The notes below the pieces were generated by a model. The model was not told where the DNA came from. It made no database searches and saw nothing but the letters and a program-made list of their open reading frames with translations. This document shows positions 18,602 through 55,457 of a DNA stretch of 64,000 nucleotides, piece after piece (the first letter of the stretch is position 1; each line of letters opens with the position of its first letter). Both the position numbers and the translations under genes were made by a program. Location: positions 1 to 64,000 of the forward strand of contig WSXX01000022.1 in the NCBI GenBank assembly GCA_009773515.1, written 5' to 3'. The stretch is from Bacteroidota bacterium. GTDB taxonomy: Bacteria; Bacteroidota; Bacteroidia; Bacteroidales; Lentimicrobiaceae.

Positions 18602-18706
18602 ACACTTCGACTCTCAGTGTGACATACGTATTATGTAAGAATTGATTCTATTTAATACATTAATATTCAATTAAATACGATGTCATCCTGAGCGGAGTCG
18701 AAGGAT
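18602..18706. repeat. Two constant-core hairpin repeats, stems ACACT/AGTGT and ATCCT/AGGAT
   Basis: At 18602-18620 ACACT and AGTGT flank a shortened core TCGACTCTC. At 18685-18706 ATCCT and AGGAT flank the full core GAGCGGAGTCGA. Confidence 0.7.
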
Positions 18707-21687: not shown

Positions 21688-21853
21688 CCCTCTCCTGCCT
21701 TCGACGAAAAGCTCAGGCACCAAAGGAGAGGGAGTTAAATCCTGCTAACTTTATAAATTAGTTTCTTAAAAAGCACAAATGCCCGATGCAGTAAGATTCC
21801 AGAACCCTCTCCTTGCCTTCGACAAAAAGCTCAGGCACCAGAGGAGAGGGCAG
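21688..21853. repeat. Two long hairpins of the constant-core family (CCCTCTCCT/AGGAGAGGG)
   Basis: Copies at 21688-21732 and 21805-21850. Each has an outer stem CCCTCTCCT/AGGAGAGGG and an inner stem GCCT/AGGC enclosing TCGAC-(GAAAA or AAAAA)-GCTC, the same half-cores as the GAGCGGAGTCGA family but with an A-rich tip. The rest of this 350-base gap between gltA and the remnant shows no gene. Confidence 0.65.
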
Positions 21854-28086: not shown

Positions 28087-28194
28087 ATCCTTCGACTCCG
28101 CTCAGGATGACATTGTAATTAATTGAATGTGAGTGCAATAAAAAGAAACAACGCTAACTAAACACGAATGTCACACTGAGCGGAGTCGAAGTGT
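28087..28194. repeat. Two constant-core hairpin repeats, stems ATCCT/AGGAT and ACACT/AGTGT
   Basis: At 28087-28108 ATCCT and AGGAT flank TCGACTCCGCTC. At 28173-28194 ACACT and AGTGT flank GAGCGGAGTCGA (the inverse orientation). Degraded relatives are at about 27838 and 27870. Together with the REPIN-like element they fill the 430-base gap between the YjbQ and epimerase genes. Confidence 0.75.
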
Positions 28195-51762: not shown

Positions 51763-51818
51763 GGATTCAAAGATTCAAGGATTCAAAGATTCAAGATTCA
51801 AGGATTCAAAGATTCAAA
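51763..51818. repeat. Tandem 8-base GATTCAAA/G repeat
   Basis: Seven units of GATTCAAG or GATTCAAA (one shortened to 7 bases) fill the space between the aspartase stop and the hydF start. The aspartase stop codon lies within the last unit. Confidence 0.9.
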
Positions 51819-53256
51819 ATAAATCATTTATCGTGTAGCCGGCCTTCAGCAGATTGGCAGGTTTAAGTAGTTCTTCCAGCTTTTCGGCTGGCAATAGTTT
51901 CATTTCATCGTTAATCTCGAGTATACTTTTTTTGCCTGATTTCATCAGCAGCGCGATCTCCGTTGCCTTGTGATAACCAATGTAAGGACTCAGCGCTGTC
52001 GCGATAGCCGGACTATGCAGCAAGCGGTTGAGGCTGGTTTTTGTATCGACTTCAATACCAGCAACCATATTTTTAAGCATGGTGCGGCAGGAAGCAATCA
52101 GCAGCTTAAGACTACCAATCATGACATGCCCGATCATTGGAACATAAGCGTTCAGGTCGAGACAACCCTGTGCGGCCAACCCTGATATCAACCCATCATT
52201 GGCATATACCTGATGCGATGCACTGATCACAAATTCAGGAATTACAGGGTTCACTTTTCCAGGCATAATGGAACTTCCGGCCTGCATACGAGGCAATTTC
52301 AGCCCGGCATCGGTCAGGTCGGATGCGAGCAAGCGAAGGTCGTTCGAAATTTTTTCAAGATTCACCGCATGTGCCTTAAGAATGGCATGCACTTCAACGA
52401 TAGAATCAAGATTGCTGGTGGTGTCGTTCAGGTTTTCGCCGCGTGTTACCGGCAAACCGGTAAGCTGTTGCAATTGCTGAACTACCTCCATCACAAAAAA
52501 ACGTGGCACGGCAACCGAAGTTCCGATGGCACTTCCACCAAGATTCACCACTTTTATACGTTCATAGCACTTCGAAACCCTCCACCAATCGCGTGAAAGA
52601 GCGTCGCTGTAGTTTGAAAACAATTTCCCGTATGACGAAGGCACCGCCTCCTGCATCTGGGTATAAGCTATGCGCAGATCATCGCGGTAACGGCCTTCAA
52701 GCACTTCAAACCCAGCCCTGAGTTCATTGATGGCGGTTTCCAGATCGTTCAGTAAAAACATTACGGCTACCTTTAATGCAGTGGGAACCACATCATTGGT
52801 GCTTTGAAAAACATTGGCAGTTTCAGTAGGATCAATGTTGAGATATTCGCCGGGTTTAAAGCCAAGTTTCAGAAGCGCTGCATTGGCAATAATTTCATTC
52901 ACATTCATATTGATGCTGGTACCGGCTCCTCCGCTTATGGCGGGAACTATAAAATCGGAGAAATAATTACCCTTTGAAACTTCCGATGCAGCTTCTGTTA
53001 TAGCATTCAGCACTTCGCCAGGGATCACCCTGACAGGCAACTCCTTATTGCTGAATTTCTCATTTAATGCCTTGAAATAGGAAGCTGCAGTAAGATAACA
53101 TGCCTGCTTGACAATTCCCATGGCACAAAACCATTCCATATGGAACGGAGAATGATCAGGAAAGTTTTCCTTTGCCCTCAGGGCATGAATTCCGTAAAGA
53201 GCATCAGCAGGAATTTGGCGGCTGCCAAGGAAATCGGATTCGGTGCGTTGTTCCAT
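51814..53256 (-). CDS. aspA: Aspartate ammonia-lyase family protein
   Basis: 480 residues, fumarase/aspartase superfamily. The conserved regions are visible: GGAGTSINMNVNEIIAN near residue 108, TANVFQSTNDVVPTALK near 150, NLGGSAIGT near 232, and the signature loop GSSIMPGKVNPVIPEFV near 330, which carries the catalytic serine. It probably converts aspartate to fumarate and ammonia. The gene precedes hydF by about 53 bases in the same orientation; aspartase-like genes accompany hydrogenase-maturation genes in other anaerobes, so it may supply ammonia or act in that process. A signature Ala-to-Gly change (MPGKVNP) relative to the common MPAKVNP leaves the substrate open. Confidence 0.9.
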   Translation of the reverse strand: MEQRTESDFLGSRQIPADALYGIHALRAKENFPDHSPFHMEWFCAMGIVKQACYLTAASYFKALNEKFSNKELPVRVIPGEVLNAITEAASEVSKGNYFSDFIVPAISGGAGTSINMNVNEIIANAALLKLGFKPGEYLNIDPTETANVFQSTNDVVPTALKVAVMFLLNDLETAINELRAGFEVLEGRYRDDLRIAYTQMQEAVPSSYGKLFSNYSDALSRDWWRVSKCYERIKVVNLGGSAIGTSVAVPRFFVMEVVQQLQQLTGLPVTRGENLNDTTSNLDSIVEVHAILKAHAVNLEKISNDLRLLASDLTDAGLKLPRMQAGSSIMPGKVNPVIPEFVISASHQVYANDGLISGLAAQGCLDLNAYVPMIGHVMIGSLKLLIASCRTMLKNMVAGIEVDTKTSLNRLLHSPAIATALSPYIGYHKATEIALLMKSGKKSILEINDEMKLLPAEKLEELLKPANLLKAGYTINDLF

Positions 53257-53310
53257 GTTTCAAAAGTAGCAAATTTTAATGATGTTGGTTTAGGTTAGTT
53301 GGAAATATAC

Positions 53311-53555
53311 CGGATGGTCTCGACTTCGCTCGACCACCGGCATTCTGCCCGACCGGCATTCAGCTCGACCACAGGCTTCTCACTCGACCACCGGCAGCCC
53401 GATTTCCTTTTCCCGCAGGTCGAGCGGAGTCGAGACCTAAGGAAACAAGGCGGAGTCGAGACCTAAGGTTTTACCGGATGGTCTCGACTTCGCTCGACCA
53501 CCGGCATTCTGCCCGACCGGCATTCCGCTCAACCACCGGCATTCTGCTCTATGGT
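53311..53555. repeat. REPIN-like module and partial second copy, left of the GIY-YIG gene
   Basis: 53316-53335 is GGTC-TCGACTTCGCTC-GACC; after a spacer with CACCGGCATTCTG and CCCGATTTCCTTTTCCCGC comes the inverse hairpin AGGTC-GAGCGGAGTCGA-GACCT (53417-53438), then a half copy. A second copy starts at 53474 with the hairpin at 53480-53499 and is truncated at about 53555. The module matches that at 54016-54143. Confidence 0.8.
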
Positions 53556-53611
53556 AGACTAATGTTCTGTGATTATAAATCTTTTGTATTTTTATTGCAA
53601 ATAAAACATAT

Positions 53612-53923
53612 ATGAAAGGCTATGTTTACATTTTAAGATGTTTTGACGATAGATTGTATGTTGGAAGTACGATTGATCTTAACAAAAGATTATCGGAGCA
53701 TCAGCAAGGGAAAGGTGCAAATTTTACCAAAAAAAGGCTTCCAGTTCAATTAGTTTATTTTGAAGAGTTTGACAGAATTGATAAAGCCTTTTATCGCGAA
53801 AAACAATTGCAAAAGTGGTCGAGAGCTAAAAAAGAAGCATTGGTAGAGGGTAATAAGGAAGCTTTACACAGTCTTGCTGCGTGTATGAATTTTTCACATT
53901 ATATGTCTAAAAACGGTCAGTGA
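53612..53923 (+). CDS. Single-domain GIY-YIG nuclease
   Basis: 103 residues, almost entirely one GIY-YIG domain of the UPF0213/URI type: YVYILRCFDDRLYVGSTIDLNKRLSEH has the first two aromatic motifs and the catalytic arginine; FYREKQLQKWSRAKKEALV near residue 75 holds the conserved glutamate. It is flanked at 60-300 bases by the densest group of constant-core hairpins in the window. Such genes are numerous in Bacteroidota genomes and may act on DNA structures or repeats, but the substrate is unknown. The C-terminal 20 residues are variable. Confidence 0.88.
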   Translation: MKGYVYILRCFDDRLYVGSTIDLNKRLSEHQQGKGANFTKKRLPVQLVYFEEFDRIDKAFYREKQLQKWSRAKKEALVEGNKEALHSLAACMNFSHYMSKNGQ

Positions 53924-54015
53924 ATATTCTGGAAACGAATTAATGAATGACAAGAAATCATTTTAATAGACTCCTCCACCTTTTCCGCAAATAACCAAGG
54001 TGATTCCGCTTTTAT

Positions 54016-54143
54016 CCGGATGGTCTCGACTTCGCTCGACCACCGGCATTCTGCTCGACCACCGGCAGCCCGATTTCCTTTTCCCGCAGGTCGAGCGGAG
54101 TCGAGACCTAAGGTAAAAAAGGCGGAGTCGAGACCTAAGGTAA
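54016..54143. repeat. REPIN-like module right of the GIY-YIG gene
   Basis: A direct copy of the left module: 54022-54041 is GGTC-TCGACTTCGCTC-GACC, the same spacer words follow, 54088-54109 is AGGTC-GAGCGGAGTCGA-GACCT, then a half copy ending in AAGG. Confidence 0.8.
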
Positions 54144-54207
54144 AAACACTAAAAGAGCCACAATAATTGATTTTTGTCCTGCATATAGAATAACTTTATG
54201 CATCTTT

Positions 54208-54225
54208 TGTTCTACATATAGAACA
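54208..54225. other. 18-base palindrome in the gap before phoH
   Basis: TGTTCTA-CATA-TAGAACA, possibly an operator. The roughly 300 bases from 54144 to 54449 otherwise show no gene; a frame from about 54228 begins like a DUF4143-type ATPase (MDKST, stop, then KIILENQ) and may be a decayed remnant. TAATTTTG at 54435-54442 is a plausible -7 element for phoH. Confidence 0.35.
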
Positions 54226-54449
54226 CAATGGACAAGAGTACGATTTAGAAGATAATTCTGGAAAATCAAAGAAAAATTCCTATTACCTTTAACCCATTAT
54301 CTCCAATCAAATTACGAAAGTGCGACTCATGAAGCTAATCGCCGAAAAGTACATAAGATCAGCCATTCACTCTGAAAAATCAATTACTTTTGCATCCTGC
54401 CATCGGGTAAAACATTTCTATCCTGATGTTTATATAATTTTGAATTTTT

Positions 54450-55457
54450 ATGAGTGAAAAAGTCTTTAGCATAGAATCTCACAGTCCTCTTGAATTTTTT
54501 GGAGTCGGGGATCGTAACTTAAATACCATCAGGGATTTATACCCGAAATTAAAATTAATTGCGCGAGGTGAATTTCTTAAAGTAATAGGCGATCCTTCCG
54601 AAGTCGTTGCTTTTGAAGATTTTTTCCACCTGTTGATACTTCATTTCGAAAGGTTTGGCTCGATAACGGAATCTGACATCAGGCAACTGGCCGAACCGGG
54701 CAGCGGAAACGGCAGCCTGAAAGACAGTCCGCCCGATGTGCTGGTTCATGGCCGCAACGGAATGGTAATCAAAGCCCGCACGGCCAATCAGATAAAGATT
54801 GTTGAAAGCGTCGGTAAAAACGATATGGTGTTTGCTATCGGCCCTGCCGGAACCGGGAAAACCTACACCGCCGTTGCTTTGGCCGTTCGTGCGCTTAAAA
54901 ACCGCGAAGTCAAGCGTATCATATTAACCCGCCCTGCCGTTGAAGCCGGTGAAAATCTGGGATTTTTACCGGGAGATATGAAAGAGAAGCTTGATCCTTA
55001 CATGCAACCGCTTTATGATGCTTTGCGCGATATGCTGCCTCCGCAGAAACTCCTCACTTATCTGGAAGACGGTACCATTGAAATTGCTCCGCTGGCTTTT
55101 ATGCGCGGACGCACGCTCGACAATGTTTTTGCAATCCTTGATGAAGCTCAGAATGCCACCTCAAGTCAGCTGAAAATGTTTCTTACCCGCATGGGGCGAT
55201 CGGCCAAATTTTTTATTACCGGAGATGTTACCCAGATCGACCTGCCACGTCACCAGCAATCGGGACTGCTTCAGGCTTCTATTATTCTGAAAGATATTCC
55301 CGGCATTGATTTTATAATGCTTGATGAATCAGATGTGGTGAGGCATAAACTTGTGACCCGCATCATCAGGGCATACGATGGTGTGAACCCACGTCAGGAA
55401 ACGAAACAGGCGAAACCTGAAGTTCCGCCTGCACCTGAAAATCCTGAAATTTCTTAA
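54450..55457 (+). CDS. phoH: PhoH-family ATPase
   Basis: 335 residues. The PhoH P-loop ATPase core occupies about residues 105-315: VFAIGPAGTGKTYTAVALAVRAL (Walker A), ILTRPAVEAGENLGFLPGDMKEKLDPYMQPLYD, then DNVFAILDEAQNATSSQLKMFLTRMG (Walker B and DEAQN) and FFITGDVTQIDLP. The N-terminal region is typical of the YbeZ subtype, which works with YbeY in rRNA metabolism. The C-terminus overlaps the convergent C10 peptidase gene by 4 bases. Starts at ATG 54450. Confidence 0.95.
   Translation: MSEKVFSIESHSPLEFFGVGDRNLNTIRDLYPKLKLIARGEFLKVIGDPSEVVAFEDFFHLLILHFERFGSITESDIRQLAEPGSGNGSLKDSPPDVLVHGRNGMVIKARTANQIKIVESVGKNDMVFAIGPAGTGKTYTAVALAVRALKNREVKRIILTRPAVEAGENLGFLPGDMKEKLDPYMQPLYDALRDMLPPQKLLTYLEDGTIEIAPLAFMRGRTLDNVFAILDEAQNATSSQLKMFLTRMGRSAKFFITGDVTQIDLPRHQQSGLLQASIILKDIPGIDFIMLDESDVVRHKLVTRIIRAYDGVNPRQETKQAKPEVPPAPENPEIS

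Follow-up and report, generated by a model that had tools for sequence, protein, structure and literature searches.

A single-domain GIY-YIG nuclease gene flanked by inverted hairpin pairs, with a hairpin loop core that follows the C-terminal tail of the nuclease

In this study, we identified a single-domain GIY-YIG nuclease gene flanked on both sides by inverted hairpin pairs in a 64,000-nt stretch of Bacteroidota DNA (hereafter the window), and comparison of about 150 related loci shows the association between hairpin and nuclease to be general. The reading that we consider reasonably likely is that the nuclease has a structure-coded, single-strand hairpin target that is read through the tail of the protein and the loop of the hairpin, and that the module moves, or has moved, by hairpin cleavage. 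The nuclease would bind single-strand DNA folded into a hairpin, in which the outer stem is complementary yet free to vary in sequence and the core (GAG...YCGA) is constant. It would be the loop within this core that sets the partnership between nuclease and hairpin, and the C-terminal tail that reads the loop. The gene and its hairpins would form the module, and lone hairpin pairs would be its non-autonomous copies. We read the module as mobile because the hairpins occur mostly as inverted pairs, both at the gene and dispersed through the genome. The initial annotation had suggested that the nuclease could recognise or mobilise the hairpins. Recognition is well supported, since the hairpins flank the gene above chance and the loop core changes with the nuclease tail, and mobilisation is plausible given that the module is inserted in frame in HsdR, that hairpin pairs are dispersed, and that one site exists in three states.

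The nuclease gene (53612-53923, + strand) encodes 103 amino acids ending in the tail LAACMN, which belongs to the CxN class described below. The GIY-YIG domain makes up the whole product (PF01541, 2.8e-19), as had been read from the sequence initially, and its score of 69.6 bits against a cut-off of 22.6 places the protein in the GIY-YIG superfamily. Pfam reports only this domain in the nuclease, and no other domain, including HUH/Y1 (TnpA), was found with it. The catalytic Y, Y, R, and E of GIY-YIG enzymes are present as Y6, Y16, R26, and E63; Y6, Y16, G18, R26, H30, and E63 are kept in an alignment of its relatives, and R26 is nearly invariant in another. The closest solved structures to its AlphaFold2 model (pLDDT 88.9) are the UPF0213 proteins 1zg2 and 1ywl, followed by Slx1. 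The UPF0213 proteins resemble the window nuclease in fold and size, and we know of no function for them. The product thus looks like an active single-domain GIY-YIG nuclease. Its gene sits between a gene that we take, from its translation, to be aspA (aspartate ammonia-lyase-like; 51814-53256, - strand) and one that, read in the same way, is presumably a PhoH-like ATPase gene (54450-55457, + strand).

The nuclease gene is surrounded by GGTCTCGACTYCGCTCGACC, present in five copies, and by two half copies of 14 bases; the 20-mer has no further copy elsewhere in the 64,000-nt window. A search with GGTCTCGACTTCGCTCGACC at up to three mismatches gave five occurrences in the window, all within 53316-54108, compared with a chance expectation of 0 in 100 shuffles, and the 14-base half GGTCTCGACTTCGC gave seven, the extra two being the half copies at 53450 and 54122. 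All five full and two half copies lie about 300 bases or less from the gene on either side, which confirms the clustering noticed initially. Each side of the gene has a module in which a spacer separates a '-' hairpin from a '+' hairpin and a half copy follows; the modules extend over 53310-53442 plus 53450 upstream and 54016-54113 plus 54122 downstream. Upstream, hairpin 1 (53310-53340, - strand; core GAGCGAAGTCGA, stem CCGGTGGTC/GACCATCCGG) and the inverted hairpin 2 (53413-53442, + strand; core GAGCGGAGTCGA, stem AGGTC/GACCT) form a REPIN-like pair, which is followed by a half copy GCGGAGTCGAGACC (53450-53463, + strand) and by hairpin 3 (53474-53504, - strand), which is the same as hairpin 1. 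Downstream, hairpins 4 (54016-54046, - strand) and 5 (54084-54113, + strand) are the two halves of the other pair, and a half copy GCGGAGTCGAGACC follows at 54122-54135 (+ strand). The matching modules reported by the initial annotation were borne out: the conserved spacer with hairpin 2 (53363-53448, + strand) and that with hairpin 5 (54034-54119, + strand) are direct repeats with 91% identity over 86 nt. A search of 53200-54250 gave no Rfam match for the hairpins at E <= 1.

The association extends well beyond this locus. Homologs of the nuclease within the same order, drawn from a search of 393 genomes and from family hits, provided 75 loci that we examined for hairpins of the form stem-GAG-N3..12-CGA-stem, with the reversed motif as a control. 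Hairpin density was 2.9/kb just upstream and 4.6/kb just downstream of the gene, compared with 0.06-0.15/kb beyond 500 nt, and the control motif occurred once across all 75 loci. In a second set of 80 named genomes, from which proteins common to the first set were removed, the density was 4.1 and 5.6 hairpins/kb at the gene and 0.03-0.16/kb farther away. The two sets overlap and were de-duplicated by protein, and the locus counts do not equal independent events. Hairpins of the local family are clearly enriched above chance at such genes in both sets, the outcome on which the initial proposal had been made to depend. Nine low-scoring homologs were also checked, and none of the nine has hairpins. 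The second set includes Flavobacteriia, Ignavibacteria, Calditrichia, Cloacimonadota, a Methylococcaceae MAG, a cyanobacterium, and a Termititenax; matched nuclease and hairpin thus recur across several phyla, with the proviso that MAG assignments can err. With respect to the gene, the hairpins face either way about equally often (+114/-113 upstream, +158/-157 downstream), which argues against an mRNA element.

Comparison with the relatives of the nuclease indicated that constancy in the hairpin is confined to the 12 bases of the core, GAGCGNAGYCGA, with a free stem around them, as in the examples cgctcgtt-core-aacgagcg, cgcaccct-core-agggtgc, and cggtcgtc-core-gacgac at different nuclease genes. 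The description of the hairpins as constant therefore holds for the loop core and fails for the outer stem, which varies across the family. For the analysis of covariation, cores were gathered without requiring a stem, thereby avoiding circularity. Among 146 distinct flank pairs, Watson-Crick pairing at stem positions 1-4 was 97/92/90/92%, compared with 56/48/30/38% when partners were shuffled, and all four pair types were seen at positions 3 to 8. Such covariation strongly supports a role for the single strand in its folded form, because the stem letters vary while their complementarity is kept. The case for a hairpin structure rests on covariation, since nearest-neighbour DNA folding gave only moderate z-scores for some single hairpins. 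Among paired cases, stem position 1 on the 5' side is always a pyrimidine; each strand therefore reads Y-GA-R, a context in which tandem sheared G.A pairs are favoured. The passage of PMC6479982 that cites Hirao 1994 and Yoshizawa 1997 describes d(GCGNAGC) mini-hairpins as very stable. The loop GCGNAG(Y)C resembles these mini-hairpins, and the Y-GA-R context suggests that the hairpin may contain tandem G.A pairs.

The loop core is matched to the C-terminal tail of the nuclease. In addition to GAGCGNAGYCGA (CG), the core types are GAGCYTGYCGA (YTG), GAGGYTCYCGA (GYTC), a longer one (LONG), and GAGT..TATCGA, and they are separated by the tail that follows WSRKKKEALI. The CxN tail goes with the CG core GAGCGNAGYCGA in 88/89 loci, the AYRD tail with GYTC in 11/12, the CMK tail with LONG in 3/3, and most remaining tails with YTG (25/30). 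The KKxF tails have none of the CG, YTG, GYTC, and LONG cores in 12/13 loci; GAGT..TATCGA hairpins are present in 9/13 KKxF loci vs 2/140 other loci. Loci lacking a GAGCG, GAGCYTG, or GAGGYTC core were at one point taken as exceptions, and many of them proved to be this fourth tail class with its GAGT..TATCGA core. We derived the tail classes from the first set; in the second set by itself, the agreement is 54/55 and 5/5. Part of this match could be physical linkage, because the closest downstream hairpin is a median of 43 nt from the tail motif. On the upstream side only, about 300 nt from the tail, 65/68 CxN loci having a core agree. A first tree had given strong coevolution of clade and core (4 changes) and was rejected, as its alignment columns had included the tail. 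The tree of the catalytic domain without the tail is poorly resolved, with 35 core changes, which ties the core match to the tail rather than to the whole protein; just two independent contrasts in it are well supported, and both go the expected way. Within the putative recognition sequence, the core is fixed for each tail class and the stem is free. The idea that the hairpin changes with the nuclease clade consequently survives for the loop core and the C-terminal tail, which change together, and was abandoned for the stem, which does not. The tail is the part of the nuclease that we would expect to read the loop.

Signs of movement come from three sources, the first of which is a coding gene. 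At the five loci of one clade (L081, L088, L092, L093, and L095), the GIY-YIG domain lies in frame within the helicase part of an EcoAI-type HsdR, where it interrupts Pfam ResIII. Hairpins are present on both sides of the domain at four of the five and on the downstream side, as a single one, at the fifth, and translation of the hairpin DNA yields linkers such as STSSPT and GELVEP. When the HsdR flanks are joined, they align as one piece, with about 72% identity, to plasmid HsdR records among the matches listed, and 227 plasmid records cover at least 80% of the joined-flank query. Open reading frames also run from GIY-YIG through hairpin-coded linkers into a presumed GHMP-kinase-like protein in Winogradskyella and Bizionia (L167, L182, and L189), and through such a linker into a presumed HsdS-like protein at L058, both names being read from translations.

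The second source is the dispersed hairpin pairs. Among adjacent hairpins, the order '-+' was found 136 times vs 57, 56, and 48 for the others. The genome of the window has 257 cores and one occurrence of the reversed control; among the first 100 of these cores listed, neighbouring pairs are '-+' in 30 cases vs 8 others, and the spacing is exactly 86 nt in 17 pairs and 29 nt in five. The window itself contains two dispersed inverted pairs without a nuclease: one at 18607-18701, with stems ACACT/AGTGT and ATCCT/AGGAT that resemble those at another nuclease gene of the same genome (C66), and one at 28092-28189 with the 86-nt spacing. At least 10 dispersed cores are present in 18/29 genomes with a CG-core nuclease vs 36/307 (p 3e-9), where cores near the gene were subtracted and the genome groups are not phylogenetically independent. 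Three genomes (G037, G167, and G202) have 49-113 GAGCGNAGYCGA cores and no single-domain nuclease of this kind, for which loss after spread is one explanation. A variant hairpin, TGCCT-GAGCTTTTYGTCGA-AGGCA, occurs twice at 21701-21832 of the window and has a core type that we matched to no nuclease. Certain 29-nt pairs (L115, L123, L129, and L142, on contigs C2, C3, and C5 of the genome of the window) are enclosed by longer inverted repeats, AATGTCGTTTAGTTAAGG...CCTTAACTAAACGACATT, an arrangement that resembles a miniature transposon.

The third source is the aspA-phoH site, which exists in three states among congeners: nuclease with hairpins (three), hairpins alone (three), and an empty spacer of 144-250 nt (three). 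The module at this site may be old rather than freshly inserted, since it is common to three congeners. Taken together, the HsdR insertion, the dispersed pairs, and the site states favour a mobile module that is old in some places. No target-site duplication was defined for the module, which counts against this explanation, as do the three core-rich genomes in which no single-domain nuclease of this kind is present.

The main alternative keeps the same nuclease and its recognition of the hairpins and removes its own mobility. Cutting would tune DNA uptake or recombination, as is said of Ssn, and the flanking hairpins would arise by recombination or self-regulation. The Ssn proteins are reportedly site-specific single-strand GIY-YIG nucleases with repeats that flank their gene, and those of Neisseria are said to tune DNA uptake or recombination by single-strand cutting at dispersed hairpins. 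Repeats of the CGTCATTCCTGCGAAGGCAGGAATC type lie on both sides of one homolog (L112), and we take them to resemble the Neisseria repeats said to be Ssn targets. This likeness, the hundreds of dispersed cores per genome, and the persistence of hairpins where the nuclease is absent all suit this alternative, whereas the in-frame insertion within HsdR, the fixed spacing of dispersed pairs, and the recurrence of a nuclease with its matching hairpin across several phyla point to movement. We regard it as rather unlikely, with a chance of perhaps one in four.

Much less probable is that the nuclease gene is a passenger among intergenic repeats spread by other machinery, or among terminators or RNA signals. 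The hairpins in genomes without the nuclease and the pairs enclosed by AATGTCGTTTAGTTAAGG...CCTTAACTAAACGACATT could be explained in this way, but the core type follows the tail class almost perfectly, hairpin density peaks sharply at the gene edges, and the hairpins are not oriented relative to the gene. Least probable of all, to the point that we give it hardly any weight, is that the hairpins are the footprint of a homing-type endonuclease, which would cut the hairpin loci as duplex DNA and spread from repeat to repeat by gene conversion, without recognition of a single strand: GIY-YIG is a homing-endonuclease fold, direct copies of the presumed target flank the gene, and sites occur with hairpins only or with hairpins and gene, but a double-strand reading of sequence is hard to reconcile with stems that are free in sequence while their pairing is kept, and the match to the group I intron endonucleases is weak (TIGR01453 of NCBIfam, 23.9 bits, far below the cut-off of 56.05). 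The group I intron GIY-YIG homing endonucleases share with the present nuclease the catalytic fold and the spread into coding genes, and differ from it in having an intron and a separate DNA-binding domain.

Among known systems, we favour comparison of the putative mobile module with RAYT/REPIN. A RAYT is a single-copy HUH/Y1 enzyme gene beside its cognate palindromes, with inverted doublets as the dispersed unit; the abundance of the cognate repeat follows the enzyme, and orphan repeats are left after enzyme loss (PMC3116915, PMC3686654). The present system likewise has an enzyme beside palindromes, inverted doublets both dispersed and at the enzyme gene, a repeat abundance that follows the enzyme, and hairpin-rich genomes without the enzyme. 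It is not a RAYT, because the HUH/Y1 domain is absent and the enzyme is a GIY-YIG protein. REP sequences have a 5' GTAG/GTGG tetranucleotide at the foot of the hairpin (PMC3116915, PMC3686654), whereas the constant part here is in the loop and the flanks 5' of the stem vary. On these likenesses, our best reading is that the system works like RAYT/REPIN with a different enzyme fold. More tentatively, and at somewhat less than even chances, it would be a GIY-YIG counterpart that mobilises hairpin pairs, with the C-terminal tail as a readable code for the loop. The core would then be constant in a tandem G.A context with a free stem, and hairpin target and enzyme would be predictable from each other.

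The nuclease probably also belongs beside the Ssn family: it is a single-domain GIY-YIG protein whose gene is flanked by a short palindromic repeat dispersed through the genome. It differs from Ssn in the inverted hairpin pairs, the match of tail to loop, and the occurrence inside coding genes, and may differ in the free outer stem with only the loop core constant. The initial remark that no described system of this form was known is doubtful, as Ssn would itself be a GIY-YIG family with gene-flanking repeats. Our literature search found no paper on GIY-YIG with REP or inverted repeats in Bacteroidetes; pairing GIY-YIG with REPIN returned only other uses of the word 'Repin' or a name, and the core sequences returned no paper on these repeats among the matches listed.

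This nuclease would give an owner to short palindromic repeats that are very common in Bacteroidota, and to similar repeats in other phyla: a 100-aa protein with a tail that predicts its loop. If the proposed cleavage is true, it would yield small nucleases that differ in their hairpin targets and have a specificity predictable from sequence. It would also explain hundreds of intergenic repeats per genome, and the spread of REPIN-like repeats would become testable with a second, unrelated enzyme fold.

Two further arrangements were seen among the homologs. At L064/L075 and L096, hairpin arrays contain tandem duplicated nuclease genes, separated by about 1.2 kb and 0.5 kb. A more distant GIY-YIG subfamily adjoins tRNA genes (L003, L039, L040, L044, and L046; also L041 and L246), namely tRNA-Pro(TGG) in four congeners, tRNA-Asp(GTC) in the genome of the window and another, and tRNA-His once. 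At L003, L039, L040, L044, and L046, copies of tRNA pieces are present on either side of the gene, a layout that resembles very small elements with tRNA genes as their insertion sites.
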